Source: Bryum argenteum (taxonomy: Eukaryota; Streptophyta; Bryopsida; Bryales; Bryaceae). From it: a DNA stretch of 64,000 nt. Positions 34,461-63,402 of this stretch are shown one piece after another; the stretch's first letter is position 1, and the number at the start of each line of letters is the position of its first letter. The notes under the pieces were generated by a model. That model saw only the letters and a program-made list of their open reading frames with translations. It was not told the DNA's origin and did not search any database. Both the position numbers and the translations under genes were made by a program. The stretch is taken from assembly GCA_037043015.1 (NCBI GenBank), contig CM073321.1, forward strand, positions 41,994,420-42,058,419, in the 5' to 3' direction.

Positions 34461-34599
34461 ATCCCTCGAATAGTAATCCTACGATATTCAAAACAATCAT
34501 CATCGTAGAATCTAGTACTCAAGATACTTAAGGCGTTTCAAGTGGCCCGAGCGTCTCTATGAGTTAAGAAGAACTCATAAATTACTAGAGGAAAACAGT

Positions 34600-36900: not shown

Positions 36901-37091
36901 CTTTCCACACTAATTTCAACTAGTCTGGATATACGTCATTTCGAACGCAAAATAACAGTGGACAAATCATTGTTTTCCTCTAGTGAATTGACACCAATCA
37001 AAAACAAATATATGCGGTATATCGTATACGAGTTTATTTACACTAAATCGTGTCCTTAAGTTGCTTCTAGGTTGAAAATATATTTTTGAAT

Positions 37092-37784
37092 TTAACTCAA
37101 GTCGAGTTGAATATCCACAAATATTTAAAGCGAATCTATTCCACAGTTGAGTATATCTCTAACTATGTGAGATTTCTAATTTAACTCGAATCGAGTTAAA
37201 TATTACTGGGGTGATTAAAATATCATGTGGCACAGTCGGAAATCCACTTTGTGAATTTCAACTCAAGTCGAGTTGATCACTCGATTCCGGACAGAGATTA
37301 TCTTCTCACAAATAAACCAGAGGACTTGATGATGTCCAATTTAACTCAAGTCGAGTTGGATATTAACACCCAGGGATATTGCATTCTTGATACTGTGAAT
37401 ATTATTGATACTTAACGAATATATCTCCAATTTTGTGAAAATTTATATTTAACTCGATTTGAGTCAAATATAACTGGGCTGATTACAATATCAAGTGTTC
37501 CTGACGAATATCCACAGTCACCGTGAATTTCAACTCTGTCGACTTGAAATTCCACACCAATACAGGGAGCATCTCCATACTAATAATCCAACTGAAACTA
37601 GAGGATTTCCCATTTCAACTCGACTCGAGTTGAATATCAACACCCATGGATATATCATTCCTGATTCTGACACCATGCCTGATACTTGACGAATTACAAT
37701 TTAACTCGACTCGAGTTGAAATTGTACAGTTGAAAGTTGACATCTATACTACGGAGATATAATTTCAACTCGACTTGAGTTGAA
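37092..37784. repeat. Array of nine TCAACTCGACTCGAGTTGA palindromes
   Basis: Copies start at 37092, 37181, 37257, 37341, 37449, 37529, 37614, 37701 and 37764, mostly 76-89 bases apart. The perfect form at 37614 contains TTCAACTCGA facing TCGAGTTGAA. Sequence between copies is not repeated, so the palindrome itself is conserved. The same unit recurs at 34.3-34.5 kb and 63 kb. Confidence 0.88.
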
Positions 37785-40815: not shown

Positions 40816-41147
40816 TTATACAAAAACCTATAGACAATTACTTTGTGATTATCCGTTAACTCCTAATGATCTAAGATGACCAAATCAGGCTTTTGCTATT
40901 TTGGGTACCATAGATGAATAGGTTGAAAGTAATAGTTTAGTTTAAATTTTTTGATGGATGCTCCCTCTACTCCAAAGTTTATATGGTTAATTTTGCAAAG
41001 CCAATTTCGAATTTGTGAGTCTCCTCTCGTTTTTGAACTACGTATACTCGAGTAAAAAACAGATACATACATAATTATAATAAACATAGTATTGTTTGAA
41101 AGAATTGTAGAGACATGATACTTTTTTAGCTTCTACGTCTTGTATAA

Positions 41148-41173
41148 AAGGGCTTATTCATTAAATTGAGACA
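41148..41173 (+). repeat. Left terminal inverted repeat of the 20-kb element
   Basis: Contains CTTATTCATTAAATTGAGAC. The same sequence, inverted and with one mismatch, is at 61102-61127. A second, inverted half motif (TTTTGAGAC) follows at 41183. Confidence 0.65.
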
Positions 41174-41583
41174 AAATGTACATTTTGAGACTTTCAGAAA
41201 CAGATGTAGAAGTCTAGTGAATCAATAGTTGTTGAACCCAACGATATATAGAAGTGATGAGTTGGTAAATATTTAAATCTTGAACTGAAGAAGCTCAAAT
41301 TGACATTTATTGTTATTCATCTCCAGCATTAATAGTGTGCAGGTTGCATGAAACTGACATGCATCTATGAAACATAAATGAAACAATTGCTCATAGAAGA
41401 AAAAGTGAGTGCTTTTCAAAGAGGGTAATATATTTACTACGTAATTGTATACAAAAATAGCATTGCTGGAGGTCAACAAACATAGTAGACTTCAAAAGAA
41501 TTAATGTACGGGTATATACTACTACTAAACGATCTACATGTATAATCTTCTGCAACATGACTTCTACTGCCATAGTAGTTCAA
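41174..41583. other. Left flank inside the element, no gene
   Basis: AT-rich stretch between the left inverted repeat and the 3' end of the first minus-strand gene. It is probably the 3' untranslated and subterminal region. Confidence 0.4.
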
Positions 41584-42357
41584 TCAGCGCACATCCGATT
41601 TTGTGTCATTAAGTTGAGCTGCTTCTTGTGCTCTGAGCTTTGCAAGCCCTTTGAAAATATCGTCGCGTCGTGATCGATGGAGGGGCCCACTTCCCCACGA
41701 GCAGGCTTCGCTTGCGCTAACTTGTTCAGCTGCACAGACCTTCCGCTTCGACCTTCGAATTGGAGGGATGGTATCAGAGGGCCCACAAGCGGAGACGGAC
41801 CGTGATCTGCGAGGAGGTCGTCCGGAGTCTCTAGACACCGTTGTACTGGAAGTCTTTGTATTTGTGATCGGTGTTGCAGTTAATGTCGGAAAGTGAAGAC
41901 GACGCTCTGGCGAAACGCGGACACGATGTTGAAGTAGGCTCTCCGCACACTCCCCACTTGCTTCGCAGCTAATATCCTTTAAAATTTGAGCAGGACTTGG
42001 AGCGGCCACGAGGGGTTCAGGTTCGAGCGTCATAACAGGAAGGAGGACTAGTTTGCGAATTGATCCCTCACCAGTCCGAGCGATAGGCGAGAAGCAATTG
42101 TCTAAGGTCGGCAATGTCCGTTTCAGTGGAGAGGGAGAGCAAGTCAGAGTCCTCATGAATCCGCGACTCGGGGGACTGTCGACCACGCCGTCTTCGATGT
42201 GCCCTTTGGAGTAGTCGATGGCCGCAGATGTAGCGTCTGCGGCAGACCGGAGGAGGTACGGCACGGAGCAGACAATAGTGCCGCAACTGCCCCCCTCCGA
42301 CACAAACCCCGAGAGGAGGCTCGTGGATGGCCTCTGACGCGGCACAGCTACGCGCAT
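41584..42357 (-). CDS. Small transposon-associated protein sharing a DGVVDSPP motif
   Basis: The ATG at 42357 follows TGTACATAG, a likely acceptor, and gives 257 residues. SAAIDYSKGHIEDGVVDSPP matches the protein at 9493-10230. The rest is rich in Ser, Arg and Pro, with basic patches RPPRRSRS and RRSKRK near the C-terminus that could be nuclear localisation signals. It lies downstream of the FCP1-like gene, the same order as at 9.5 kb. No known domain. Intact frame. Confidence 0.55.
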   Translation of the reverse strand: MRVAVPRQRPSTSLLSGFVSEGGSCGTIVCSVPYLLRSAADATSAAIDYSKGHIEDGVVDSPPSRGFMRTLTCSPSPLKRTLPTLDNCFSPIARTGEGSIRKLVLLPVMTLEPEPLVAAPSPAQILKDISCEASGECAESLLQHRVRVSPERRLHFPTLTATPITNTKTSSTTVSRDSGRPPRRSRSVSACGPSDTIPPIRRSKRKVCAAEQVSASEACSWGSGPLHRSRRDDIFKGLAKLRAQEAAQLNDTKSDVR

Positions 42358-42623
42358 GCATTCATCCTATGTACACAAACATTCGTTACATAGAGAACCG
42401 CGTCAGGCAGGGTCAAACAAGAAGCATATTCCATCACAGTAGATTCAATGTTAGGAAATTCATCCATAGACAACCGATAGTAATAATACCAAGAATTAGG
42501 GGTAAATCCAACTCCTTTATTATTAACTTCCGGTAAATACATGGTGTACATCACGGTACAATAATTACAAAATGTAGATGGAAATGTCAAAATGTAGATG
42601 GATATGTAGATGGAGTAAGGAAG
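42358..42623. other. Spacer between FCP1-like and tail genes
   Basis: AT-rich. It probably holds the 3' end of the FCP1-like gene and a 5' intron or leader of the tail gene. No other feature seen. Confidence 0.3.
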
Positions 42624-43320
42624 CTACAGAAAGCCAGGTCTCCTAGTAAATGTGCGCCCATGTTCTATGACGAAGCCTATCCCCGGTAAACTAAATCGAG
42701 TCCCCATGGTCTGCGAAGACATCAACATGCCGGCGATGAGTTTCTTGGCGGTCGGGTCACCGGGACGCAACAGGTTTTGGCCAATGCGATTGTCCTCCAC
42801 GAATCGCTGCAAACGTCCCTCGTGGGAATCTAGGCGGTTTAGCCAAGGCAGAAGGTCTTCCATGAGGAAGTCGTTCTCGCCATCCCGGGGACTCCAGGTG
42901 CGAAGGAATAGAGCATTACCGTTCTCATTGCAGATACTCTTTTGGGGAGAGTCATCAATGAGAAGAGTATTGTCTGGGGAAAAGAACGTGTCACCACTAG
43001 GATTGCTGAACACAGCCTCCGAGAGCACTTTCATGTACACAACCTTGTGGCCGAGCTGAAAGGACTTCCCGTCGGGGAGCTGGATCGTGGTGCAATCCTT
43101 TTGGCAGAGGACATCGAAAGGATGTTTGCCACCGCCAAAGAGGTGGCCAACGACACCCTCAACATTATGCTTCATCGTCGAAGTCCACACTAAGACCTTG
43201 TCCGCGATGTCGGAAACCTGACGGAGAAAATCCCCGACATTTTTCCTCGCAAACACCACCTTAGAATCAATCAAAACAGTAAGGGTCAGAGGTCTGTACC
43301 TGGTCGTCTGCACTAGGGTC
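42624..43320 (-). CDS. FCP1/NIF-like HAD phosphatase-like domain
   Basis: Landmarks in order: KVVFARKNVGDFLRQVSDIA, KVLVWTSTMKHNVEGVVGHL, PFDVLCQKDC and NTLLIDDSPQKSICNENGNA with LFLRTW. This follows the FCP1/small CTD phosphatase order, including the late DDSP motif. The early DxDGT nucleophile loop is not visible; the frame reads LTVLIDSK where it should be. The frame is intact down to TAG at 42624. The upstream end joins an acidic leader (43716-43267) in an overlapping frame, so an intron or frame change lies near 43300. Compared with the cousin at 8.3-9.4 kb, both lack a canonical nucleophile. Phosphatase activity is therefore doubtful. Confidence 0.6.
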
Positions 43321-43716
43321 CTGAGAAGGAACTTCAGGAGCCGTTTGAAGTTCCGAGCTCCCAACCTCCAGGTCGTTAGCTCCCAACTCGTAGTCAACTT
43401 TCTCGACTTCGTCCTCCTCATCAGCATCGTCGGCTCGATGATCCAAGTCTGCGGGAGCATCTCCAGTTCTTGGCACGTGCTCAATACGAGGACTCGCTTG
43501 CAACTTGACATCAACATTATCGTCGTGGCGATGATGCTGTACGGCAGGAGATCCCAGTGGTGCAGCCGTCTCAGGCACCCAGAGGTTGACAGGCCCCTCA
43601 ACGGTAGATGGAATCGTTGACAACTGGCAGAGAGGAGTCGACTCTATGACGTCCTCGTTTGCAGAGGGAACTGCTCCACTGGTATCGTCGGCTCGACGAT
43701 GAGGAGACACAGCCAA
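43267..43716 (-). CDS. Acidic leader exon with palindrome-encoded peptides
   Basis: This 149-codon frame from the ATG at 43716 has no known fold. It is rich in Asp, Glu and Pro and contains HRRADDT and DHRADDAD. Both peptides are direct translations of the 19-bp palindrome family, at 43683-43701 and 43424-43442. It overlaps the start of the FCP1-like frame and likely forms its N-terminus through splicing. It could be disordered linker material. Confidence 0.45.
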   Translation of the reverse strand: MAVSPHRRADDTSGAVPSANEDVIESTPLCQLSTIPSTVEGPVNLWVPETAAPLGSPAVQHHRHDDNVDVKLQASPRIEHVPRTGDAPADLDHRADDADEEDEVEKVDYELGANDLEVGSSELQTAPEVPSQDPSADDQVQTSDPYCFD

Positions 43717-44507
43717 AGTTGGAGCAAGTTGAAGCGGCTAATGTTCTGTAGGAGGAGGTAGAGGTGCCGATGTGCAATGAGGAGGCGGGGGCATATTCAA
43801 GACCATGAGCTCAACAGGTGGGTGGGATGATGTCGACGCGGGAGGCATTAGTGTAGAGGAGGCGGATGTCAACGGAGGAAGCACTGGAGAAGACAGAACG
43901 GCGGCACCAAGATTGACTCCGGTCCGGCTCTGCAACAACAACTGCATCTCTGACATCTGAGCCTGCAGTTGTTCCACTATCTTGTCCGACTCGGCTTGCT
44001 TTTGAGCTAACCTCCTGTTTTCGCCCTTCACCTCCTCCTTCTCTTGTGCCCGCCTGATTCTCTTCGCCCTCCTTTCCTCGTCCTTCTCCCAATATCCCTT
44101 TTCATACTTGACCCGCAAGCCGTTGGGGGCCGTCGTGATTTTGTACTCCACAGCGTCCGGATCTACGGGTTCCTCGTCATCCTCGTCCGATGAGTGCGGT
44201 TTATCGAACTCGTCATCGCTAGGAAGATGAATGATCTCTGAGGGACTCGGCACCCGTTCTTCAACGACTTGGGTCACAACTACATCGTCATCGCCACCCA
44301 CGACTTCGCGAGCCTGCGACTTGGGATTGTCTTGTCCGCCCTCGCCAGTCGGACGACCTGTCTGCCTACGCCTACGGGTCGCCTGGTTTACCCTCGCCTC
44401 TGAAATGACCTGTCTGCTGCTGCTTGCAGACTTTCCTCTCAGCCTTTGCTCGCGCATGGCCCTGTCTGCCCTTGCATGTGTGGTGACTTGACTGCTCACT
44501 GCGTCCC

Positions 44508-44951
44508 GATCGTCGAGTCGACGATCCGCTGCATCTTGGCCTTCACCACGATCCGTTCCATCATGCAGAGGCTCTATAGCCTGGTCCTGTTCCACGTGTT
44601 CTACCCCTGCACCGTCATGTCGGGTATCAGCATCCTGATCTTGTCTATCGTCGGCACAACGATCGACCCTTCCATCCCCTGCACCGGCTTGAAGAGGATT
44701 CACAACATCCTCTTCCACATCGTCGGCACGACGATTGACCCCTTTACCCCCCGCACCGGCTTGACGGAGGTCCAACACATCGTCCTGTGCAACGTCGCTC
44801 CAACGATCCACACTTTCAACCCCCTTGCCGCCTAGACGAAGATCTTGTACTTCATCCTGTACATCGTCGTCCCGACGATGTGACCCCTGCTCTTGTTCCG
44901 GGTCAGGACCAGGTTCCTTGACAGGCTCCGCAGCATCGCCGGACCGACGAT
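44508..44951. repeat. In-frame palindromes within coding repeats
   Basis: Copies of the 19-bp palindrome at 44508, 44645, 44718, 44791, 44862 and 44933 are 71-73 bases apart (the first gap is double) and coincide with a 24-codon protein repeat. They encode RRLDD, RCADD, RRADD, RWSD, RRDDD and RRSGD in the coiled-coil gene. Confidence 0.8.
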
Positions 44952-45613
44952 CCTCGACATTCTGAGAACCGACTTGGGCGACCAGACCATGCTGTCCCAC
45001 CTCTCGCAGCCAGATCGATGACGACATCATCTTGGACTGCATTGTCATGATAGGAATCATGCTCGCCTTGATCCTGTGAGGGCAATTCTTGATCTTCCAA
45101 GGGGTTGACCTGCAAATGCACATTACCGTCCGCTTGTTCATCGCCCTCCGAATCCTCGTCATCTAAACGATAGTTTCGTTGCGCCTCGTACTCAGAATCT
45201 ATCTCCATGTCGATGGGATTCTGAGATGAACCGGCCCCCTGGTCATCTATTGGTGCAAGGGGGAAAGCTCGCTCAAAATTCATCCTCGAGCAGACTCGGA
45301 ATGTGTTCGTCCCGTATTGATCAATGCCCTGGATGCCCGGATCATTGGAAACATGCGCTCCTACTTCTTCAGGTTGGCGCACTACTCCGAACCCACCTTC
45401 GACATGAGAGTTTAGATTCATCGGTGGCGATGGAGGAGAGTCGGAGTGCACTATTACGGGACCCCGCGTGACCGGACGAACAAAATCTTTCGAATACGGC
45501 GAGTTCCAGTGCATAAAATCGTTCATGTCAAGCCGTTCTGCAAGAGCCGAGATTTTGATTTCGCTCTTCACGTCGTCACGATCTACAAACCCATAGTAAT
45601 GAGCTCCGAACAT

Positions 45614-45753
45614 CTGGCATATACATGTAACACTGTTAGATCACATTATCGTCGAGCCGACAATAATTCACACTACTATGAAGCACAAAGTTGAAATAAA
45701 GCTCTGGGTATCGTCGACCCGACCATACCAAGGAATAGTATACGAGTGGTTAC
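45614..45753 (-). other. Intron 2 of the fusion gene, carrying two palindromes
   Basis: Donor AAG|GTAACC and acceptor TGCCAG|ATG. It contains 19-bp palindromes at 45646-45666 and 45709-45727, both slightly decayed. Confidence 0.7.
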
Positions 45754-47079
45754 CTTAGAAGCGAGGAGGAATTTCGCGCCCGCGTGAATGCCAATGACAT
45801 TCTCCTTCACTGACGCGCACGCGGCAAGTATCTTGAAGTAGAACTCTATGCGAAGCTCAGTCGGATACACCCGCCATTTTGCCTCTGTATTTCTGGCGGC
45901 CTCTATATAGTACAAGCGATTAGCTGGTGTGTCATACCTCTTTCTGACACACTTCTTCGCATCCTTCGCTATTTCACTTCCGTTCTTAAACAGGAAGAGA
46001 AGTGTCACGTCCGGTGCGGTCTTCCTATTGCTGACGTTGTCCAGCATTTCCGCCTTACTTGGTACGTACGTGGAGAGAGACGGCTCATACTGAGGGAGCT
46101 CTCTAGCTGCAAACTTCGATGCAACCTTCTGGTCTTCCTTTCCAGACAAGACCATCAGCCAGACGTTCGGCTCCGAGATCTTGGGCTCTAGATGATGCCG
46201 CAGATAGTCCAGGAATGGGTCAACGGCTCCGCTCGTCTCGGTCACTTGCGATTGTGGGACATTGCGCAAGTCGAGTAGTGCCAGATTCACCTCGCGTGCA
46301 GTGTAGGTGTAATGGCTGCTCGTGACTAAAGCCTTTGATTTGAAGTCTAGCCCTCTGATCTGCACACTCTCAAGAGGCTCTTTCGGGCGGTACTTCAGCG
46401 TCATGAACCTCCTGTACATGTACACCACCTCTGGATGCTGCTGCTCCCACTCGACCGCATTTTTTGTCTTTGCCCCGTTGCGGAGGCGCTTCCTGTAGTA
46501 CTCCGCGCTGGGATACGACAAGAGAAAATCCCAGCTCGCCGACGTGAACCGGTGCCTAATCTTCCACGCCTTTCATGTGGCGTCAATGGTGTCGCCGCCG
46601 CCGTCGATAAGCTTGAGGGAGGGCTTGATTGAAATGATATCCTCAAGCACAACTTTCTTGCGCTTCCTTCTCGCCACCCAGTCGACGCACGCAAGGTTGT
46701 CTGCCACAAGTACGAGAGATTTCCCAACAGTGACTTTCGGATATGGTGCAGTCCGTCCCGGAGTTTCCCCAAGTAGACGCCTTGGCATGATGGTGAAGTC
46801 TGTGTCGGTGAACCATCCGCATCGCCTGAAGAACTCGCGTTTCAGCTTGTTACTCTTGGACTTGTAGGTCTTCGTCTTGTTGAAAGGCAATTTCAAGACG
46901 GGGTCAATTAATTCGCCATCAGCATGCTTCTGAAGAAACCTTTCCCAATAGTCGAACTTGTGGTCCGGTAGGGTGATGATTTGAATCTCATTCTTCAGAT
47001 TGGCTGCGGACTTTATCTGTGCCCCATCCCCTGTTGGATTGATGTTCGGGTATCTCTCCGTCACAGCATCCGTGAAGCT

Positions 47080-47182
47080 CTGCGTACGTTAATTAGCTCA
47101 GGTTAGCATTGTGAAGTAAGGTGAACGTCAGCATAAGAGGTATCGTCGATGCAACGATAGCCACTTGAGATCGAAACGTTAC
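47080..47182 (-). other. Intron 1 of the fusion gene, carrying one palindrome
   Basis: Donor AAG|GTAACG and acceptor TACGCAG|AGC. It contains one palindrome at 47141-47159 (TATCGTCGATGCAACGATA). Confidence 0.7.
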
Positions 47183-48625
47183 CTTGAACCTGACAACGTT
47201 GAGCACCGCCTTACTACCCCTCGTGACCGCTTCCGAAAATACATCATTTGGCCGCTTTAGGGCTATCCAAATATTTCTACACGCCACTACCTGGTTTCCC
47301 CATGACGGTTGTGCATGATCCAGGTGGTTTGTGATGTTGTAGAATTTTGATATCCCTCGAAGTTTAGTTGCGTCCAATGTCCAGATGATGTAAGCGTTCC
47401 ATTTGCAGAGCTCTTTGCGCCGAACCTCTCCACATCCTTCTTTTTGGAGCTGTTTTGATGCCCAAACACTATGCTGCCCGTTGATGATCATGAACTTCCC
47501 GTCCTTGATCTCATCCCAATCTTCTGGCTTGTTCTTTAGCAGCTTCTCTTTGGAATCCACTGGAGTTAGGCAGATTTTCTGTCTCTGCTTGACATCGATC
47601 ATCTGGACAAGTTCTCTGGCGACTCCTTCAACCATGTCCTGCTGCAGCGTTCGGATAACATACTGATCCTTGGCCAGTATGCACTGATCGATATCTACCT
47701 CCATCGGGTTCATGTTCAGCAAAAAGCAGTCCTTGTGGTTATCCCAAAACTCCTTCTGTAAGTTTGCGGTTTTCTCGAACTCCTCCAGATTCTCATCAGA
47801 AGTACCAGCTCTAGCGGTCACGTTTGTCAATGCTGACCCTGAACTCCCCATAGTTTGAGTCGGTACTATTGCAATACTTGGTGCGGCTGAAGCGGGTTTC
47901 TTGCGCTTGCGGCTCGACCTAGCTCCACCTGTAGAAGGTGGAGCTCTCTTCCTACCCTCCGACCGAGGCTGACTCGGTGTTACTCCTTTGCCTGCAGATC
48001 CGGAAGGGGTGGACGCCAAATTTAGGCGTGAAATCGATGCACCCCGATTCGGCTGCACTGGTGTTCGTCGCGCAGCGGGTTCTGAGCACACGTTTGCCAG
48101 GGCGTATCGATCGAGTGTTTGGAAGATCCTCATGAGTCGATTTGCGATGGACTTTGCAGAGCCACATTGTCCGCTCACATATCCCAACTTGATGAACTCG
48201 ATATTCAGGGAGGCCATTTCGGTACCCTCAAAGTACGTCATGAGGTCCTGAATGTCAAAAATTCCATGCTCCTTTGTTGTATCAATGACAATAGAGTGGC
48301 AGTGATCTTGCTCGAATCCATTCTCGTCCACTGCACGGAGCACGATGACGATGTAGATGTCTCTGTGGCACTTGATGATGGTGACCTTCTCGTTGTGGTT
48401 CCACGGCAGATAAGTAGATGATCCGTTCGCCTTGTATCGAATGAACACAAAATTCTTGAATTTGTTGACTCCAAAATTCCATGTTTGAATATGGGGCCTG
48501 AACTGCCATAGATCTCCATACGTCTCGGCCATTTTTTCAAAAAATGGCTCGTCTCCCAATGGATTCACGAACGGCTCGAGGTGATGCAGGGTGACTTTGT
48601 ACTCATATGCTTCGACTTCCGCCAT

Positions 48626-50035
48626 TTTATCTTTCTACATCAGCGTCACGGATTTGAGTTAGACGTTTCGTCGCTATGCAATTAGCTCTGAGCTGATTCT
48701 AAGGTACCAATCGTCTCTGTTATCTATCAGAAAATGGAAGAGATGAATCAATTGGTTTATATATTATTTCCATTGACAACGGTGATAGAAGGACGTATGG
48801 ATCATCTTTTGCCATACTCCTACATGAATATCCGTCATGAATATAACGCTAGAAATTTGTTAATTCTGTCCTTTAGGTGGTCCTTTAGCTCCAACATAGC
48901 TACCTTCAAACTCGGTATTGTCGGTTCGACGATAGCTACGTCAATGTCTGTTCTATTGCTTGGCTTCAGCGTCATGAATCTAGTAAGAAACATGTATGTT
49001 CATGATCTAGAATGTTTTATTTTTTATTACAGTACCTCTCACGATTTATGAAGCGTTGTATCGTCGACCTGACGATAAGGCTACTAGTGGCCTTGCATTG
49101 TCAAACCGACGATGCGGCTTTTGAAGCCTTTACCGTCGACCCGACGATACAACTTATGCTCTCTCAACTTCATTTGAAATTTGCTTCTCAACTCTACTTC
49201 TCTCGATAGAAACAAGTATATCTAGAGAAACTTGTAAATCTAGTATGAATTCGGTAATATATTTAAATGTCTAACCGCCGGCTCGACGATTACTTTCTGT
49301 TCATGATCTATAATGTTTTATTTTTATTACAGTACCTCTCACGATTTATGAAGCGTTGTATCGTCGACCTGACGATAAGGCTACTAGTGGCCTTGCATTG
49401 TCAAACCGACGATGCGGCTTTTGAAGCCTTTACCGTCGACCCGACGATACAACTTATGCTCTCTCAACTTCATTTGAAATTTGCTTCTCAACTCTACTTC
49501 TCTCGATAGAAACAAGTATATCTAGAGAAACTTGTAAATCTAGTATGAATTCGGTAATATATTTAAATGTCTAACCGCCGGCTCGACGATTACTTTCTGT
49601 TCATGATCTATAATGTTTTATTTTTATTACAGTACCTCTCACGATTTATGAAGCGTTGTATCGTCGACACGACGATACGGATATAGTTGCCTTGTATCGT
49701 CGACCCGACGATAAGGCTACTAGTTGCCTTGCATTGTCAAACCGACGATGCGGCTTTTGAAGCCTTTACCGTCGACCCGACGATACAAGTTATGCTCAAT
49801 CAACTTTATTTGAGATTTGCTTCTCAACTCTACTTCTTTTACAGTATTCTTATCCTCCTTTCTTGTGCTGTATCGTCGACCCAACGATATGGGGATTTGA
49901 ACCCTTGTATCGTCGACCCGACGATACAGGCCACTGCTCTCTAAACTGTGTTTGGAGTTGGTGGCTTTTTGATTTTATTATTAATTTTCTCAATACTACA
50001 TTCTATTGGTCTATCGTCGGCCCGACGATACTACC
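48626..50035. repeat. Palindrome array TATCGTCG-NNN-CGACGATA upstream of the fusion gene
   Basis: Copies begin near 48916, 49059, 49096, 49131, 49272, 49359, 49396, 49431, 49572, 49659, 49695, 49733, 49768, 49871, 49908 and 50012. Perfect forms such as TATCGTCGACCCGACGATA occur at 49695 and 49908. Spacings cluster at 35-38 bases and their multiples. The block lies in the promoter and 5' region of the minus-strand fusion gene. Open frames through it are by-products of the repeats. Confidence 0.88.
48999..49845. repeat. 300-bp tandem repeat, about 2.7 copies
   Basis: Bases 49021-49320 and 49321-49620 are practically identical at an offset of 300. A third, diverged and partial copy runs from 49600 to about 49845. 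Each unit carries four palindromes of the 19-bp family. Confidence 0.92.
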
Positions 50036-50924
50036 ATAAGATAAAGTATCGACGGATTCCTAAACCCTAAACGTAATTCTAAAACGTGCGATACTAAAAA
50101 ACAGTAAAAACCATACCTGCTCTTGAATGCTAAACGCTCCTAAACCCTAATTGCTTCGACTGCCGAAGTGCTCCCGTATCGTCCGAACTCCTCCCGAATC
50201 GCACGAAGTGCTCCCTGATATTTGAGATGCCCATACGAGCAATTAACAAACGCATCGCATCTAATTGGCGAAGAATCCACAACAAATAATCCATCTCGAG
50301 CTAGTTGCATGAGCTGCGCAGAATGAAAAAGCGGCATCAATCAAGCCATTGTTTCTACAAAAAGAAACAATAAAGGATGAGGGTCGATCGATTGATTACC
50401 AAATTGGCTTTCGCAGCATTCAAATACGCCTCTAGAGTGCGATCGCAGAGAGAAGTCAACAAGAAACTAGCTGCCAATGCACACGCTAGCACACAATCAC
50501 CATCTCTTTGTGGCCTTCTAAATCACTTGCCTCTCCGCATCGTAAGTAAGCACTGCACAAAAGTACACATACTCAATCGGCTTCTCTCGTGGAAGAACCG
50601 CCGCTTTAAATAATTCTCTCCGAAAACCTAACGTGCCTTTTCCACTCTTAACAAAACACAGACAATCGTTTGCTATTCGAGCTTGAGACCTGGTGGTAGA
50701 AGGTCACAAGCGGCGCACACAAAACAAGCGGCGCACACGAAACAAGCGGTGCACACTAAACAAGCAACGCGCAGGCGGCGCAACACGGAGAAGGGAAGAC
50801 AGAAGGTGGCGGAGCAAAAAACGGAGCTGCGAAAAGAGCCGACGACGAAGAGCAAGACAACAAGAATGAAGTGGAAAGGCGGCGCAACGGGGTCATCATG
50901 CCCCCCATGATGGCCACCATGCCA
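50036..50924. other. Leader-like region with A/G-rich stretch
   Basis: It contains TAAACCCTAA words at 50065 and 50140. On the minus strand from about 50870 to 50690 it has a pyrimidine-rich sequence with threefold GTGTGCGCCGCTTGTTT-like repeats. It parallels the leader at 10.6-11.2 kb in the opposite orientation. No gene I can support. Confidence 0.4.
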
Positions 50925-50986
50925 TGAAATTATCATGTGCATGGGCATGGTCATGCATGACCATGCCCATGCACATGATAATTTCA
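50925..50986. repeat. Perfect 62-bp palindrome
   Basis: The centre is between 50955 and 50956. Every base from 50925 to 50986 pairs with its mirror partner; the inner part is GCATGGTCATGCATGACCATGC. It is built of CATG words and followed by an A-run. A decayed cousin is at 10594-10660. Confidence 0.95.
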
Positions 50987-52379
50987 AAAAAAAATTTAAA
51001 AAAATTAGAAAACATAATATATAAAATTAACAAATTAAAATTTTAGAAAATTTAGAATACCAAACAAATTAAAAGTTTACAAAATTTACAAAACTATTTA
51101 TAGATCTCAAAATTACGCTTATGGTTTTGCGTTTATTTATTTTCATTCTAAATTTTGTTAAGTGTTAGAAAATTAATTGCTTCGACGCTGATTTTAGTTT
51201 TTTACATTTGTGTTGTCAAATGTTTGTTGCTACTTAACCCTTAAACGCCCGAGCCTATTTTTAGCATGAAAGCACATTTCCATAGAAATCGTCATATATG
51301 AAAATCAAGAGAAGCTATTTAGATTTAAACCGTAGAAACTTGTAATAGACTTATCCAAGATCATGTGGACCAAAATTTGAGTCATAAGGCCTTCTAGATC
51401 GGGAGATCATAACATATTAATATAAAAAACAAACTGCAAAGTTTCATCATTTTCACTTCGAGGTGGAAATGCTACCAATATACCTATTGCAATGAAAAAA
51501 TCACCAACTAGAAAGATGTTCACCTTCATCTTAATAAATCCTTTACCCAACAAAAATTCATCAAAAAACTTTCTTAGCTCAAATAAAAGCTATGCAAAGT
51601 GCAAACAAAAATAGAATGAGCTCTATAGCTTCTTATACCCTCTTATATGCCTTTTAGCATGCCCTACTGTTGAGACGACCCATACTAAGTTGTGCAACTT
51701 ACGAGACATGAAGTTTGACTAGTTATCACCAAAAGACAAACATGAGATAGAAGCAAAGGGCGACATCTAATTTTGGCACGAAAAGGCGACAACAAGCCAA
51801 TACATGTATGTCAGCTAAAAATGAAAATAACTATTCGAATCAAGAAATATAGCCTTATGTAGAAAGAAAAAATAAAGCAAGGTATAAATGAACATTGAAT
51901 TTGGAATAAATAAGAACAGAGTGTTCATCTAAACTCTAAATTCTTTAGGCTTGTAAAGTTTTGGATGATTACAAATTGCCAAAATTTTATGATGATTACA
52001 AATTGCCAAAAGGTTGATGTAAGGTTCACATTTGGCACATCTCATACTTTATATGTTGCCAATTAATTTTTAGTTTGCATCCCACATGTATGCAATAACC
52101 ACAATGCATGCCAGTGTGTGGGGTTGCAAAAATGAAAGGTTTGGAACGCATTAAGAACAACGGTTTCGTTAAAAGTGCCAATTGAAATGTGCACTTTATT
52201 TTTGGATTAATTCTTAATATTATAATCACAATTTTTTGAATGTATATGCAACAAGTTAACATTTTGGTTTAGTTTCAATTCAAATAATATTGATTCCAAA
52301 TAATTCCAAAAAAAACCATGCTCATTGTATATTTGTCATGATTACATTGTATTTTAACTTTTAATCTATGAATCTTCAG
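50987..52379. other. AT-rich region, no gene
   Basis: Mostly AT-rich. TTAACCCTTAAACGCCCGAG near 51235 resembles the TIR of the MITE-like element at 13957, but I found no matching partner end. Nothing else seen. Confidence 0.35.
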
Positions 52380-54475
52380 TGGGAGAGCAATGTGCCTCAC
52401 TTAAGTAAAGCGCAAACCAAATTTCAAGTATTAAAATAGGAGATAAATCACATGACAAACCTCCATGGTTTAAGTTTGAATATTTTAACAATCCACAAAG
52501 GGAATACTATACATGCCTTGTCCCAAACTTGTTGGAGCATACATATATAAGTTGGAACATTATGAAATGGGGTGGGACATGTGCCTCACACAAGACCTAC
52601 TCTTTCCCTATTATATTATTAGTATTTAAGAGAAATGCAAACTATAGAGTCTAATAAACCAAAAGCCAATAGTGAAGAAAAGTCTAACTTATCTAAAAGT
52701 TGGAATGAATTAAATATTTGTTCAGTATACTCATACATGGCTATGAAGCAAATAATTGGATAATTGATAAGTTACTATCTTAATAAAGATACAATGAGTT
52801 TGTTTTTTAATATGAATCAACAAATATTCACAAGATTCCAAAGTAAGTCATATACACTATCATGTATTTTAACCAAGTATTCAAGCACTTGCAAAATCTC
52901 AAATTTCAAATAGCGGTGAGGCAAATATTCCAACTCTAAATTAGTTTTCAAGTAATACATAAAAAAGTGTGACACATGTTTCACCCTAAGAACCACATTT
53001 ACCATCAACAAGTTATATAACCCTTAATTGACATCACTGGCCGTGCAAAGGCGCCTCACTGACAAATTTGGTCCGCTCTGTCAATAAAGGGATAAGAAGG
53101 AGAGGAATATGTGCCTCACTCAATACCTACACTTTATGATTTTGGTCCAATCTCAATCAAAAGATGAGAATTAATAATCCTTTTAAAATTCATGAATAGT
53201 CAATTCCTACCCATCAACTCTGTTAGCAACTTAAATATTTTTGTAATTCAAGTATGTCATTGTTAAATATGACGCTTTGCAAGTACTAGTAGCAATACCA
53301 TTTTGCGTAATACATATACATGCTAAAGAACATTATCATTTTGTTGTAATAACTCGAGAGCTTTTTTCGATGTCACTTTATAGCCAAATGAATCAACTAG
53401 AATGCTCCAACAGATAAAAATTCCAAAGGGTATTGGAAAACCGCTATAAATTTCTCATATGAGAAATTAGACTAGGTTTTGATACATTGTACTTTGTCAT
53501 TTTATATTATGGACATCAAATATGTGAATTTTGAAGTAAGGGGTGAGAGACATGCCATACACCATGCTTCAAATCATGAAAATTGCAAGAGCTTGAAGGG
53601 GTATGACATATGCCTCACCCCAAAACCCACATCTTGAAAATTCCTACATAAGCTTCTTTATATAAACTAGTTTTGGGTACTAAATCTTTTAGACCACATA
53701 TTCCTCACATACTGTATTTCACATTTCAAAGAGTTTAAGTTGTTAAATGATTTCATAAAAAAGAACACTACATGAATTCTTGCATACCCAAAAGATTCAC
53801 ATTTTGTAAATCTAAATCTTATAAATCACAACTTATAACATTCAAAATTATTTCATATTGGAATGAGACATGTGCCTTACTGAAGCCAAATATTCTTGCA
53901 ATTTACATGTATTTAACAAGAGGGTGAGACACATGCCACACCCTTGCTCTAAGTTGAAACCAAAATAATTTGGAAAAAATTCACAAAAAAAATAAAATAT
54001 AAGTGTCTATCTTATTAATCTCATTCTTAAATCGCTCGAGAGGTATTATAGAATTACAATAAGATTTAATTAAAAGGTTATGAAATCAAAGTTAAAAATA
54101 AAATGCATTTAAAGTTAGACCAAGTGCCATTAATGCAAATATACATGAAAATTGATTAGAAGTTAGATCAACTAGATTAATGAACCAACAAGTAGTAAAA
54201 GGAACCTTATAGTTCCCATTTTGCTCTTAGAAAAAGGTGTCAAGGTAATGGATAAAATTGTGACATAAGTCTTTTTATATTACTGTATTACATATGTAGA
54301 GAAACCTAAACTTTTAAGAAATACATCAACCTAATGTAGCATATGTTTCACCACAAAAACCACAAAATATATATGAAATTTCATACAATTGAATTTCATA
54401 CTCGTGGTTTCATAAAATGAAATTCCTACAATTGTAACATTTGGGTGAGACACATGTCTCACCCGTACATTCTCC
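52380..54475. repeat. Spaced dyads of the GTGAGACACATGTCTCAC family
   Basis: GTGCCTCAC, GAGACATGTGCCTCAC and GGTGAGACACATGTCTCACC-like words recur near 52391, 52575, 52915, 52970, 53050, 53105, 53550, 53605, 53865, 53930 and 54450. Some are near-perfect palindromes. The surroundings are AT-rich and gene-poor. This is yet another palindrome family, inside the part of the 20-kb element that lacks the TATCGTCG family, so it probably marks a nested insertion. Confidence 0.6.
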
Positions 54476-55970
54476 TTTAAAAAAAAAAAGTGTAGAGACC
54501 CTTTGTGAAAGTGCTCCGGATGAGGTCCTTTACGGTCAAGTGTGACACCTTGTTCAGCCATTTTTCTACTGTAATAAACCGACGAGGTCCTTTTTCATCA
54601 AGTTTGTTTCGCTGTTCAGCAACTCCAAGTTAACACCGACCGATGATGAATTTGGCCTCGGTGAATGCTGCAGTACAATTCTTGTATTGGATTGCATGTA
54701 CATGAGAATTCTTTGAACTGGAAAAGTGATCCATGAGGAGCAGCTAGAAGAGCTAGATACCAATATTTGTCAAAGGTTTTTTTTGAAAAATAATTTAATA
54801 CGAGAGTAGGATCTAGGTTAAGAAACTAGAATGTTGATGAGACTAAGAGATATTTTATAAGAAGAAGATACTATGAACTTTCAAAGGCACATAAACAACT
54901 ATCTTTTAGTAGTCTGAATTTAAGTTATTATTTATTATAAAATAGAAATAATAGAGAAAATATCATAATTGTCTTATAAGAACTGTTAGAGAATTAGTTG
55001 AGAAAATTATGAAAAAAAAATCTAGTTACTTAAGTAATTGTACATGAATATAACTTGTAACATAATTGTAACATCCTAGGACATCTTCTATAGGTTTATA
55101 GTTTTGTATCCTGGTTGAGCTATTAGGTATTTAAGAGAGAAGAGTTTGAAAGCTTTTAATAATACACTCACTCTATAAGTCCAATCTAGAATAGGTTGTA
55201 CTATAAAACTACATAAATATGCACTTTACACAATAACACAATTCAAATAAAGTTATGAAATTTGAAACTCTATGTAAAGTCGCTAACTATTGCATTTAAG
55301 TTTGATTATGTAGTCTCGTATGTAAAGTTAGAATATTTTTTATAATATACATTTTACTCATAATTATTGTATTCTATGGTTGATATTCAACCTACATTAT
55401 GCTACTTTAAGTATTTACAAACGTTCTTCTAACGCCAAATTTTAACAATCATATGTTATATATTGTAAATGTAAAATGGTGAATCAGTGATAACAATATT
55501 AGAAAATTTTACATTCGTTAACACCAAACAAAAACATTTACTTATAATTACATTCATTACATTATCTTTTAGAACTTTATCAACTATTTAAGCAAAAAGC
55601 TTATAGCCTTTACTTTAAAAATCCTTACATTAAGTTTACTAACCCCTAAAACCTTAAGCATTGACCGTAAACCCTAAATTCTTAACCATAAAATCCTAAA
55701 CCTTAAACCCTTAAACTCTAACCCCTAAAACCAAAACCCCAAATCCTAAACCCTAAACCCTGAGGTTTTATTTTTGTAAGCCTTTAATTATGAATTTGTT
55801 CACAAAGCGGATTTTCATAGAGGATGCTATTTGGGACGTATATTCGTTACCTAAGATCCTGCTAATAAGTTCGTTACGAAAGTCGTGGGTTCTCATTTAT
55901 TAGCCGGATCTTATCTTGAATATGTCTTATACGAAGATCCGTTTGAACAATGACCGTTTGAATTTCATTT
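54476..55970. other. AT-rich region; possible small exon and telomere-like words
   Basis: At 54570-54485 the minus strand has an acceptor-like TTATTACAG followed by a short frame (VEKWLNKVSHLTVKDLIRST) before a GT. It could be a lone exon of an unknown protein, but nothing confirms it. CCTAAACCCTAAACCCT occurs at 55645-55765. Otherwise nothing. Confidence 0.25.
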
Positions 55971-56496
55971 TTGGCGGCAAACTATTCCCGCTCTTTCCTT
56001 GCGCGCGGAATTCATCCATTGAATGTTGGTATTCTTCGCGTAAGGAACCGCCTTGGCTTTAATCACTGCTCTTTGTGTTGTGTAAACCCCGGTCAAGTTC
56101 TTGCGCTGCTCTTCCTTCGGCTTGAGGCGGTGCTCTTCCGCGCTTTCTCTCCTCCTCTCTTCTTCTCTTCTTTTCTATCAATTCTTGGGCGCTACTTCAC
56201 GGTGTTGGCTCTGAACTTCCGCCGCAGGTTAGCTAACATTCCACGACACTTCCTTTTGAGATTGTCTATAATGTATAATCCGCCTCTTATTGTCGAGCTG
56301 ATCGTCTTTGCTTCTGTTCATTGTTCGTCGTCTTTATTTGTGTTTATTGTTCTTCAATTTTTCTGTAGTATATCGGTTGAGTTTATTGTTGTTGTATCTG
56401 TGTTAAAGTTTGTTACCAAACCTGTGTTGGAAACGACTGCAACGTACATTGCGTCTTTTACGCCGAAAAATTCGGAAATGCCTTGGGATTTGTGCC

Positions 56497-57640
56497 ATCA
56501 TCGGATCGATGATAACCCTGAGGGTCGCCTCGGAGGGCGTAAAGTCTTCGAGGGGGCGTGCAGTCCTCGGGGGGCGTGCAGTATTTTTTTTGCCTGGTTA
56601 TCGTAGAGTCGACGATAACCATCATGATTACCAGTAGGTTCATTTCACATTTAAATGATTAGCATGCCAGGTTATCGTCGTGTCGACGATAACCCTGAGG
56701 GTCGCCTCGAAGGGCGTAAAGTCTTCGAGGGGGCGTGCAGACCTCGGGGGGCCTGCAATATTTTTTTTGCCTGGTTATCGTAGAGTCGACGATAACCATC
56801 ATGATTACCAGTAGGTTCATTTCACATTTAAATGATTAGTATGCTAGGTTATCGTCGTGTCGACGATAACCCTGAGGGTCGCCTCGGAAAGTCTTCGAGG
56901 GGGCGTGCAGACCTCGGGGGGCCTGCAGTATTTTTTTTGCCTGGTTATCGTAGAGTCGACGATAACCATCATGATTACCTGTAGGTTCATTTCACATTTA
57001 AATGATTAGTATGCCAGGTTATCGTCGTGTCGACGATAACTCTTATGGTATCCTCTTTTGATAACCTCTTTTGATAACCTCTTCTCTTAACCTCTATGAA
57101 TGTCAATTTATCGTCGCGTCGACGATCTCTATTATGTCGTCTGGAACTATCCCATTTATCATCGGGTCGACGATAACATAAATGTTATCCAATACGAGAG
57201 TGTAAACTGAAAATATTACTTCTATGACATGCTATCGTCGTGTCGACGATATCTTTCAAGCTGCACAAAAGGTAGTATATTATCATTAATGCTATTATTA
57301 CCATCTGTGGTTATCGTCGGGTCGACGATACCTCATCTATCCTCGGCCGGGGAGTACTTTATCTTAGTTATATGTGGTCGTCCGTCATGTTATCGTCGGG
57401 TCGACGATAACTTTGATTAATTGGGTTAATGGCTATCAAGATATACTCTATGTTGTTGTACGGACAACCTACTCAAATAAGTATGTTAGTTAGATTTGAT
57501 AGCCTCTGTCTGTAGAGGTGTAAGAAAACTATTAGTCAGTTGCTGTGGATATCGTCGGCTCGACGATTCGTGAGGATTCTTTCTTCACTCCACAGCTTGG
57601 AGACGGAAACTGTTAAGATGGTATAGTCGAGTCGACGATT
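56497..57640. repeat. Second TATCGTCG-NNN-CGACGATA array, upstream of the transposase gene
   Basis: Copies at 56497 (variant), 56599, 56673, 56776, 56850, 56946, 57020, 57109, 57157, 57233, 57312, 57391, 57550 and 57622; the common spacing is 72-79 bases. Here the flanks often extend the dyad to GGTTATCGTCG...CGACGATAACC. The first part is a threefold tandem repeat of about 175 bases with CTGAGGGTCGCCTCGG and a T-run. It is the 5' region of the plus-strand putative transposase. Confidence 0.9.
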
Positions 57641-57802
57641 CGTGTCCCTTATAGCGCTCTTCTTCTCGTCTTTATCATATTCATGATACACCGCTGTCAT
57701 TTTCGCCGGTGGACGGAATAAGCGTTTGACATGAAGAAGTGTTATTCTTTCAGTCATCGATCTGAACTTAATTTTGTTATATATTGTTGATTTTCTTGCA
57801 GG

Positions 57803-60659
57803 ATGGATATGCATCATCCAGAAGAGTTTGCAAGGTCATTGCCTACTTTGGCTCCTGGTGTCGCTGTCTGCGACGGCATTTCTCGGGCTAAATGGATCTT
57901 AAAAGTTGTGACCCTTCGTAACAATGAAGGTCTTGACGTGGCCAAAGCATTGTGCCAGAACCTGGATCCGGATGTGGATGACGGGATAGAAGGCTTAATT
58001 CTTGGTGAAAATCAGGTTATGGTGCAAATCGCGGAGTCCCTATCTGAGGAGCATTTCCCATCCGGACAGATGTGGTCCTTCCACGCATGGGACACAAAAC
58101 ATGTTTTGCTTGATGGCGTGAGTCTCTACGACCATGAGCAAACTCATAAGTACAAAGAGGCTATAAAAGCAGTTAATCGAAAAGGTCGGAAAGGTGATCG
58201 TTCATATGACTCTATACGTCATAGAGTAGAGAATGTTGCTCCACCCAAGAAAGATGCTTTGCTGGCGCCAGCATCTATCATTGCAGTCTCCACACAATCG
58301 TGTTGTGAGGCAAATTGCTTACAACTATTTCCCCGTGGACATATTCATGATATCCGCTCTCAACTGCATGTGAATGATGGGGTCTATGCTCGTAAGAAGT
58401 GTCTCCTTGAGGTCCATAGACAGATCCACAAGGACCTGGCAGGCTTGGAGTGGATCACCTTGAAAGGTAGAGAAGTGTGCCCTACTGCTTGGTGGATCAT
58501 TCATGGTATTTCTAGAGCTACATTCTACAGGTACAGGGAAATGTCCAAGAGTGGGAAACAAGCTGAGGGTCACGGGAATGTGGGGTTGAAAAAACCCCGA
58601 CTACATACGGTCCAAGCAGCAGCGACGCATCGTACGCTCATAGTTTCTGGTGCTGACAAAATGCCTCACAAAACAAGGACGCTCACGAACGGTGAAAAAG
58701 TCCCTGCCATGGTATTGCCATCTGCGTTCTGTTGGAGTGACAAGTTAGCTCACATCAATGAGATGAATGCAAGATTCGAGTTGTCGCCAATTTCCTCAAG
58801 TGGCCTGAGTAACATTTGGCGTTCTTCATTTCCAGAGTTTGCCCCAAAGGCCCGAGGTGATACTTTTTCTCGATGTGGCCTGTGTGATAGATACAAGCAA
58901 ATTCGAAGCGCTTGCACACCTCTATCGTATGCACAACAGAAGTGGTCAAATAAATTGGAAAGCCACCTCATCTCTCAAAGGGCACATAGAGAACTATACT
59001 ATTTCAATCGGACCGTTGTGGATGATTCTCCTCACAAGCTGCTGACGATCATCCATGATAAAATGGATCACTCCAAGACTGCGTCCCCACACTTTTCTCA
59101 CAAGACCAAGGCAACAAATTCCTACACAAAAATGCCTCTTGCAGTCACGGGAATGATTGCCCACGGTCATGGAGATGTTAAATACGCGCACTATGGTCTT
59201 GACATCTTCCCCGCAAATTCTAACTCAACCATTGGATCTCTTGCTAAGCTCCTACGTGATCTCGAAGGAGAACCTAGGAATTCATCTCGTAGGCTCTTTT
59301 CAAATGAGAATACTCGATCGACATTATCCAATGCAGTTCTGCAAGGTTCACATACATGCGTTGACTCCTTTCTTCCTCAACCTGATGCTCCTGTCCCTGC
59401 TCAAGCTTTGCCCCCTATACTAGTCTTGCAGCTAGATAATGCTTCAGGGGACAACAAGAATAGATGGCTTTTGGCCTTTTGTTCACTCCTTGTTTACAAA
59501 GGGATTTTTCGTGAAGTTTACATGAACTTCCTCATAGTTGGACACACGCATGAAGATATAGATGCCATGTTCGCCCGATGGAGCTCGAAGTTGAATACAA
59601 ATGACTATCCAACAATCCCACGACTTATGAAATCCTTCATGGACTGTGAAACACAACCTGTCATTCCCCATTTAATTGAAGAGGTTCCCGATTTCAAGGA
59701 ATTTTGCGATGGTTATGTGGGCACAGGCGGTGACTTTCTAGAGGGTCATTCCAAGGCAAAGCAATTTAAGTTCTGCATGGATTCGAATGGGTGGCCTATA
59801 ATGGAGTACAAGAATTTGTGTACTAACAAGGATTGGTTACCAGAGCATGGCAAAGGGATTCGCTTGTGGGGTGAAACTGAAGATGGTAGACCTTGTGTTC
59901 CATCTGGTTCACCGAAACCTGTCATCCTAGAACATAAAAGTTTACTCAATGATGTCAAGAAAGGGCTAGATGGGTACATTGCACATTGGACAGGAATGGC
60001 TGATGAGGATCTCTCTAGAGAATTTAGACGGCAAAACAATCCTTCAAGAGATTATTGGAAAGGTGTTCGAGCTGCTCTCGATGCATCGATCGAGCCACGT
60101 GAAAGTTTAGTTGATGGATTTTGGCCGGCTTCTAGAATTGTCCTTGACGAGATTGACTTCATGCATGGAGATGGCTTTCATGACAGGGGAAGAGGATGCG
60201 GAAGATGAACCCTTTGTAGGACGTGTCCGTGACCGTCCGCGTGCTTCATTCCGTGTAAATCGCGATACATTTGCAGGATATTTTGTTGCAGTGCGTCCCG
60301 CAGAGGATGATCCAAGGCCATTATGGCTTGCTAGAGCCTTAACAAATCCAAGTCCGGATCCCGGACATATGCATATGATCCAAATTCAATATTGGGCTCC
60401 CCGCACTAGAAAACATATCAATATGGACACGTATGTAGGATGGGACACAAAAAAAGGGACTGTGTGGCGGGAAGATCGAACAATGGATCCAACATGGTCT
60501 AACACATCATGTATCATGACAGCTTGGAAGCCAAGAGTGCGCGAATCAACTTCAGATCCCAAGATAGCTATACCAACGCCTCAAATTGACATCATCAAGG
60601 CATCAGTGAATGCTTTTACGACAAACTCTGAAGACGACGCATCTACTCCAGAAGGATGA
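57803..60659 (+). pseudogene. Large putative transposase (DUF7869-like), one frameshift
   Basis: The ATG at 57803 follows a clear acceptor (TTTTCTTGCAG, ending 57801), so a 5' exon or leader is spliced on. The 801-residue frame to 60208 has CCEANCLQLFP (about residue 166), CGLCDRYKQIRSAC (357), HDKMDHSKTASP (418), LQLDNASGDNKN (541) and VGHTHEDIDAMF (580). A one-base frameshift between about 60150 and 60205 leads to the final 150 residues (EEDAEDEPFVGRVRDRPRAS onward) in the next frame, ending at TGA 60657-60659. The copy at 31430-34256 shows that both parts belong to one protein. Family members I recall carry the name DUF7869. An RNase H-fold catalytic core with D, D and E/D in the last three motifs is inference. 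It lies divergent to the fusion gene and is preceded by the same palindromes. Confidence 0.65.
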
Positions 60660-61101
60660 TATATGCTTTCGATGTTGAAGATTCACATTGTAGAGTGTCT
60701 TAGTGTCTAAAGGGGCATTTCTTTGTTATAATATTGCAGGTAGGAAATAGATAGAATACTTTCCTTCATAGTTGTATTCTAGCTAGTAGATTGTGCAACG
60801 AGGACTTTGTCTTTACTTCATCTATCCAATTTGGAAATAAATAGCATATTATTCTAACTAAAACTTTACCTTTGAAAAGTTATTTTGAGAATCTCAATTT
60901 AATGGAATGTCTCAAATTGGTTCATCAAATAATCACTTTCTATTATGTATCATGGGATGTTTGATATTAACACTTTATCTATTCAAAAAAGAAATTTTCA
61001 ATCATCAAAACACTCAAAAGTATCAATTTAATGGAATGTCTCAATTTAATTTGCATATTTAGAAGTCTAATTATAGCAGAGATTAAATTGAGACTTCAGT
61101 G
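60660..61101. repeat. Right subterminal region with TCTCAATTTAATG repeats
   Basis: TCTCAATTTAATGGAATGTCTCAA occurs near 60893 and 61022, with single halves at 61038 and 61084 (inverted). These repeat the core of the terminal inverted repeat. No gene. Confidence 0.6.
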
Positions 61102-61127
61102 TGTCTCAATTTAATGAATAAGGCCTT
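61102..61127 (-). repeat. Right terminal inverted repeat of the 20-kb element
   Basis: On the minus strand it contains CTTATTCATTAAATTGAGAC, matching 41148-41173 with one mismatch in 26. Confidence 0.65.
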
Positions 61128-61299
61128 ATAAGAGAGTTGGGTTATCGGTGATAGATTTGGCGATCCTTCCTATCAACCTACGTAACTTTCTCGTACAAAC
61201 ATTCCTACCTATCTAGCTACCTATCTACCAACATACAAACGTACTTACCTACTCACCTACTTTTTATGTCTTTTGGATTACATAAAAACAAAAATGTCA

Positions 61300-62957: not shown

Positions 62958-63402
62958 TAATCCAACTCAACTGGAGTTGAAGTAGAAAGATTATGTACGT
63001 TTCTTCAAGCAGTTAAAAAAGCACCATAATATTCAACTCGACTCGAGTTGAATCATTTAAGCATAGGAATCACTAAATGCAGACATGGTATCCATATAGT
63101 TGAAACATGACATGACAAACTCAACTGAAGTATAGCACAGATCCTCTGACTAAATAAGACAGGAACATGAGTCTATACAATCAACTCGATTCGAGTTGAA
63201 TTGGAGAAGATTTATCTTCAAGTTTAATTCAACTCGACTGGAGTTGAAAGTATTCAAGCACTGTATGAGGAGATCAGAACACTCCTCGAAGGATACATTC
63301 AACTCGAATCGAGTTGAATTAATCTTCCGTGGACAGTTGCTAAAGATATTCGTAATGTAGTAGAGACGAATAGAATGCTATTTCAACTCGACTCGAGTTG
63401 AA
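62958..63402. repeat. Array of TCAACTCGACTCGAGTTGA palindromes
   Basis: Six copies from about 62961 to 63402, including perfect ones near 63032 and 63382, 49-149 bases apart. Same family as 34315-37784, downstream of a leader-like region, so it probably opens another element that runs out of the window. Confidence 0.85.

Follow-up and report, generated by a model that had tools for sequence, protein, structure and literature searches.

The 64,000-nucleotide stretch of the moss Bryum argenteum genome studied here (C1:41994420-42058419, hereafter the window; the genome comprises 258.8 Mb in 25 contigs) contains two divergent gene sets and many copies of a short palindrome between the arms of an inverted repeat, and the question that it raises is whether all of these form a single mobile element and what the palindromes could be for. 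We have found that the transposon corresponds exactly to positions 41148-61127 (19,980 bp), with a transposase gene in its right part and three genes, which we call A, B and C, in its left part. We propose, with a probability of roughly 0.55 for the explanation as a whole, that this giant element is a DNA transposon of Sola type which moves by cut-and-paste and would carry its own sequence-recognition module, in which a dimeric protein encoded by the element, most likely that of gene A, would sit on the palindromes and provide both autoregulation and protection from silencing.

The limits of the element were established first from its ends. The sequence-only reading of this DNA had described a 26-bp inverted repeat with 25 of 26 identical bases, and this terminal inverted repeat (TIR) is indeed present at 41148-41173 (plus strand, AAGGGCTTATTCATTAAATTGAGACA) and 61102-61127 (minus strand), with the sequence AAGG(G/C)CTTATTCATTAAATTGAGACA. 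Its inner 20 bases gave 85 and 79 matches in the host genome with up to two mismatches, compared with one and one for the reversed control, so the repeat is far beyond chance. Alignment of copies fixed the exact ends, as a 4-bp target-site duplication (TSD) directly outside AAGG...CCTT was found without mismatch in eight of the 11 pairs of ends examined (the probability of at least 8 of 11 is ~2e-17 given the window base composition); two other pairs agreed at 3 of 4 bases, and the last one showed no agreement because its right end falls at a shifted internal repeat. In the window the duplication is ATAA, at 41144-41147 and 61128-61131, and the sequences found across elements were ATAA, ATGT, AAAA, AGAA, AATA, ATTT, GTTG and one TTAA, with paired ends lying 11.8 to 23.8 kb apart among the elements compared. 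The superfamilies that target TTAA, piggyBac and Kolobok, are ruled out by this variety of TSDs, of which only one is TTAA. Mutator-like elements, with TSDs of 7-12 bp, and Ginger elements, with TG...CA termini and TIRs of 40-270 bp (PMC10741241 for both), are ruled out as well by the 4-bp TSD in the first case and by the AAGG...CCTT termini and the 26-bp TIR in the second.

Nine copies (E1-E9) were retrieved whole or nearly so and aligned against the window element. All nine contain the right gene and no less than the outer left gene(s) between the same TIRs, which bears out the idea that both gene sets belong to one transposon and rules out two separate elements sharing one TIR. Gene A was nearly complete in six of them (E1, E2, E4, E7, E8 and E9) and present only in part in E3; E6 has lost gene A and contains genes B and C, and the left set of E5 is reduced to the gene C region. 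The copies in which gene A is lost or partial look like internal deletions. In the alignable noncoding spacer the copies were 83.7-98.5% identical to the window element, and the closest ones would be fairly young.

The association of these genes extends well beyond the close copies. We searched the genome with the transposase (56 of 2439 candidates scored) and with gene A exon 1 (89 of 971 scored), a sampling in which the absence of a partner means little, and the scored matches merged into 56 transposase and 80 gene A loci. Gene A was found within 25 kb of 28 of the 56 transposase loci, in divergent orientation in 27 of these 28, and on C1 we counted 21 such pairs when shuffling gave a mean of 0.76 and a maximum of 4. 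Gene B lay downstream of gene A, on the same strand and at no more than 20 kb, in 23 of the 27 divergent pairs, including eight of the nine in which gene A identity was 45% or lower; the C1 pairs of genes A and B numbered 18 (shuffled mean 0.39, maximum 3). This pairing used 106 of 150 gene B matches, namely the first 103 and three lower ones that contributed no pair, with 44 omitted. The module of transposase, gene A and gene B is therefore kept down to about 52%, 33% and 36% protein identity, respectively, and because the three genes stay together across deeply diverged classes, genes A and B look like core parts of the element rather than cargo.

The right set had been read as one large D/D/E-like gene, and our analysis agrees with this. 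The 801-amino-acid open reading frame (ORF) at 57803-60208 (plus strand) matches the Pfam family DUF7869 (E 4e-46), and its predicted fold, with an RNase-H-like core of DDD type at approximately residues 397-619, is most like those of DDE/D transposases. Foldseek alone gave no match below E 0.001 and sequence searches of the PDB gave no useful match. Within the Sola-type explanation we consider this DUF7869 protein to be the transposase, with a predicted catalytic activity.

Gene A, on the minus strand, consists of three exons predicted from the sequence with GT/AG borders (48625-47183, 47079-45754 and 45613-43267), separated by predicted introns at 47182-47080 and 45753-45614. It is around this gene and in front of the transposase gene that the palindromes are concentrated. 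The type found in the window (G-type) reads TTATCGTCG-N3-CGACGATAA or close to it, 21 bp arranged as 9-N3-9, and the window holds 35 sites with at most one mismatch, all of them at 43426-57639 inside the element, for a chance expectation of 0.01. When two mismatches are allowed there are 42 sites: 16 upstream of gene A (48917-50029, an array that lies in part within 300-bp tandem repeats), 13 ahead of the transposase gene (56600-57639), three in the introns (one in the first and two in the second), nine in exon 3 and one at the spacer edge. The two gene sets do then share one palindrome family, as had been proposed, but it is not subterminal: the arrays precede both genes, and further sites are in the two introns and exon 3 of gene A. 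The palindromes of exon 3 at 44509-44951 are coding, several of them 72 bp apart, and are read as RRADD-like peptides, and exon 3 of a relative on C11 reads DYPRAGDN and similar; it appears from these translations that the DNA site shapes the exon 3 peptide.

More distant relatives carry arrays of the same design with other bases. Genome-wide we counted 434 exact G-type sites (control, 0), and the relative on C4, with a transposase 71% and a gene A 52% identical, presents G-type palindromes on both sides of its intergenic region. Four relatives with transposases 52-55% identical (on C7, on C11 and two on C8) have instead arrays of TTATCCCCG-N3-CGGGGATAA (C-type; 1062 sites genome-wide, control 0) spaced by about 45 or 62 bp. 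These arrays are on both sides at C11 and at one C8 locus and on the transposase side at C7 and at the other C8 locus, the gene A sides of which were only partly covered by the scan; G-type sites (at most two mismatches) were absent from the scanned C7 and C11 stretches. A third type, TTCAACTCG-N3-CGAGTTGAA, has 1053 sites in the genome and none in the control. All three types are 9-N3-9 palindromes with the core CG-N3-CG.

To relate site type and gene class, we set the 50 sites that head the list of each type (out of 434 and 1062, every one on C1) against the scored C1 gene matches below ~6 Mb, taking as close class a gene A of at least 41% or a transposase of at least 63% identity and as deep class a gene A of at most 35% or a transposase of at most 55%. 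Close-class genes were near 49 of the 50 G-type sites, none of which was nearest a deep-class gene, and deep-class genes were near 40 of the 50 C-type sites, none of which was nearest a close-class gene. Percentage identity by itself does not separate the classes perfectly, since C-type sites also occur at two loci on C8 whose partial matches to gene A are of 41-45%. As read from translations rather than from a DNA scan, a palindrome-derived peptide follows exon 1 in two of three gene A relatives at ~50% identity (P0116 and P0118; none is visible in P0117) and in the C4 relative, and in the deep class such peptides are present in C-type form. One genome thus contains three natural site types, two of which are tied to matching gene classes.

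Because the architecture is kept, the bases change by class and the sites are symmetrical, these palindromes resemble an operator read by a dimer, and we infer from the sequences that the reader is encoded by the element itself, most likely by gene A. This gene is the first candidate for two reasons: it has sites in both its introns and an exon, and the accessory protein reported for a Sola1 element of Ectocarpus is ParB-like (PMC12477816). According to the explanation that we favour, the 26-bp TIRs would be the substrate of the transposase, and insertion would produce the 4-bp duplications; the transposase gene and gene A are divergent, each with its own palindrome array in front; the dimeric binder would tune the expression of both genes and, in the manner of VANC, keep the element from host silencing; and the FCP1-like product of gene B would be a conserved companion with a possible role in transcription. 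Autoregulation combined with anti-silencing is proposed because VANC is the nearest working precedent, so that the effect on host silencing is suggested by analogy, and the role of gene B in transcription is suggested more weakly.

The palindromes could also be binding sites of the transposase itself, used for promoter autorepression or for assembly, with gene A having another role. The palindrome class tracks the transposase class as well as that of gene A and the arrays are directly upstream of the transposase gene, as would be expected in that case. Nevertheless, the transposase must act at the TIRs and no palindrome of the window element (at most two mismatches) is near them, as none falls in the leftmost 2.1 kb (41148-43266) or in the rightmost 3.4 kb (after 57639), and intronic and exonic sites occur in gene A only, so that we regard this possibility as rather unlikely.

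A role already suggested for the Ectocarpus Sola1 accessory protein (PMC12477816) is still less likely here, namely that the gene A product, as a ParB-guided DNA methyltransferase, puts 4mC or 6mA marks (N4-methylcytosine or N6-methyladenine) on the element that encodes it, the palindromes being loading or methylation sites. The arrangement of the genes is that of Sola1-1_Ec32 (PMC12477816), the motif INGQHS/IDGQHS is present (INGQHSVWAS in exon 1, 47183-48625, ParB/DGQHR-like by eye), and a stretch at the end of exon 2 (45754-47079, methyltransferase-like by eye only) resembles motif X/I of DNA methyltransferases. This C-terminal stretch aligned by hhalign with four methyltransferases of a phage collection over 51 columns and in the expected register, but the E value of 0.22 is inseparable from that of an unrelated control (0.48). 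Neither the ParB-like domain, whose GQHS motif was seen by eye, nor the methyltransferase domain gave any match in Pfam, NCBIfam or PDB searches, and where a DPPY-type catalytic motif would be expected we read LLDLRNVP, the aspartate of motif I being G. The methyltransferase domain, if it is one, looks degenerate. A tblastn search of gene A against phages gave no match, a homologue search with the C7 protein found none and another yielded three exon-1 relatives only, and the AlphaFold (AF2) model of exon 1 had a pLDDT of 39.5 and was not used. Close-class gene A is mostly decayed, as only two of the 10 genome matches that cover the whole of exon 1 are free of stops, and in the deep class there are some long open frames (996 amino acids on C7 and C6).

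A search of the genome for PF01555 (N6_N4_Mtase) found only two other loci, C4:20498341 and C7:9878472, neither of which is gene A; they are nearly identical, have a DTPF motif and show no similarity to gene A, and they are perhaps the methyltransferase gene of another repeat family.

That the palindromes are neutral tandem-repeat debris inherited by each element lineage, with no binder, is very unlikely: many sites do lie in tandem units of 300 bp and 170-177 bp, and repeats spread within lineages, but the 9-N3-9 symmetry is common to all three types, the spacing is regular, classes with ~33% protein identity retain sites at intron positions as well as inside a coding exon, and the window element has none (at most two mismatches) in gene A exons 1-2 or in the transposase ORF.

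Gene B (42624-43266, minus strand) encodes an FCP1/NIF-like, phosphatase-like protein with a PF03031 match of E 8e-9 in the window and E 2.3e-14 in the C11 relative. FCP1-type enzymes have the catalytic motif D-x-D. In gene B, motif I is DLN in a by-eye translation of copy E1 and DIN in the relative on C11, and this D-x-N makes phosphatase activity doubtful. Gene C (41584-42366, minus strand) is a 260-amino-acid ORF, also present in copy E1, for which no Pfam family passed the cut-off (Tox-MPTase3 was sub-threshold, at E 0.005). The contents that the sequence-only reading gave to the left set are in this way confirmed for the FCP1-like gene, the small tail ORF and the divergent orientation, while its ParB and methyltransferase labels have no statistical support; its view of a cargo of DNA-modification proteins is doubtful, given that no methyltransferase match was obtained in Pfam or PDB, that no DPPY-type motif was seen and that the FCP1-like protein has D-x-N.

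Three genes are damaged in the window copy. Gene A has one stop codon, in exon 2, and at least one frame break, in the low-complexity, coiled-coil exon 3 (43267-45613) that contains the coding palindromes. Gene B has lost ~660-700 bp, including its 5' exon, at 43264-43271, a segment present in all seven copies that keep both sides of the junction (E1-E4 and E7-E9); an 8-bp repeat is found at this junction, as in microhomology deletions. The reading frame of the transposase is interrupted close to the end of the protein, the C-terminal part being encoded in another frame at 60111-60659 (plus strand), which matches the C-terminus of P0001. The window copy is probably fairly young and defective, and it would be moved, if at all, in trans.

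Other observations concern the surroundings and the genomic distribution of these elements. A second DUF7869 transposase gene, also with a broken frame, is located at 31433-34256 (minus strand; 73% identical to Ceratodon, 61% to Physcomitrium and 46% to P0001), and palindromes of the third type are found beside it at 34316-37783 and again at 63033-63401, to the right of the 20-kb element, which is perhaps nested in an older element with this palindrome type; no partner gene of the third type was found in the 7 kb to the right of the window. That region contains a 977-amino-acid ORF without Pfam match beside a 362-amino-acid ORF (stretch L059:1791-4721), possibly another mobile element, and the ORF at 781-1725 (plus strand) of the window, with Integrase_H2C2 over the cut-off and an rve-like match just under it, is part of a retrotransposon. 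In the middle spacer of the element there is a perfect 31-bp inverted repeat with no spacer (50925-50986), and degenerate telomere-like CCCTAAA repeats occur at 55639-55757; the spacer of the relative on C4 has GGGTTTA repeats (L051:2188-2320). C1 represents 44 of 259 Mb (17% of the genome) and holds 43 of the 56 transposase and 64 of the 80 gene A scored loci, as well as 36 of the 40 scored copies of a left-end search. C1 may be a region without recombination in which these elements accumulate, or a sex chromosome, the latter because the locus tag and the contig size (110 Mb) of the Ceratodon transposase homologue KC19_VG078600 suggest the V chromosome.

Regarding known systems, the five named moss homologues of the transposase, from Ceratodon purpureus and Physcomitrium patens, are 39-56% identical and are named only hypothetical or DUF7869 domain-containing proteins; we did not find the name DUF7869 in the open literature searched, and our results provide a likely function for these moss proteins annotated as unknown. 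The sequence-only reading saw in the element an undescribed or barely described class, a view that we have abandoned, because the 4-bp TSD, the DDD type, the size and the published accessory gene of a similar Sola1 element explain it with no need of a new class. Sola elements have 4-bp TSDs, a DDD-type transposase and TIRs of 11-1124 bp, measure mostly 2-9 kb with some above 15 kb, and have been reported in the moss Physcomitrella (PMC10741241). The element described here has 4-bp TSDs, a predicted DDD-type transposase with an RNase-H-like core and a 26-bp TIR, although at 19,980 bp it is larger than most Sola elements and the likeness is one of described characters. Sola1-1_Ec32 of Ectocarpus has a similar layout, being a 21.5-kb giant whose accessory gene runs opposite to the transposase gene, as in 27 of our 28 nearby pairs, and encodes a protein described as having ParB-like and DNA methyltransferase parts (PMC12477816). 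In the moss element, however, the methyltransferase-like part of gene A is degenerate-looking and without Pfam match, the FCP1-like gene B is a regular companion, and palindrome arrays are not mentioned in the available description of Sola1-1_Ec32 (PMC12477816). The idea of an accessory gene has thus been published already, and what is new here is the module of transposase and genes A and B together with 21-bp palindromes specific to each class (for example, TTATCGTCG versus TTATCCCCG); neither such palindromes nor a regular FCP1-like partner were met in the open literature on Sola elements, in searches made without palindromes as a named target. That a conserved FCP1-like gene belongs to the core of a transposon is unexpected.

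It is an open question how transposons avoid being silenced by their hosts, and the nearest plant example, VANC, comes from a single group, the VANDAL elements, which are Mutator-like. The moss element has a similar layout in another type of transposon and with other proteins, its site arrays being at its own promoters and introns. VANC binds motif arrays in the introns and upstream regions of its own VANDAL element, recognises family-specific motifs and removes methylation, and the VANC21 motifs are short words in the same orientation, YAGTATTAY (PMC5735166). Both systems share arrays of short motifs in noncoding parts, in introns and upstream of their own genes, that are enriched in the family and differ between related families, whereas the sites of the moss element are 21-bp palindromes, some of them in a coding exon, and the resemblance described here is one of layout. 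We tentatively suggest, as a bolder possibility, that mosses have a Sola-type anti-silencing or element-identity system independent of VANC, in which a dimer derived from a ParB/methyltransferase protein would read class-specific palindromes, its specificity would have changed two or more times to give the three types, the coding-exon sites would have been kept and gene B (FCP1-type, with D-x-N) would be a standing partner acting on transcription of the element. Between classes the palindrome sequence changes while its position and symmetry stay, and the three natural site types in one genome make such a switch of specificity directly testable.

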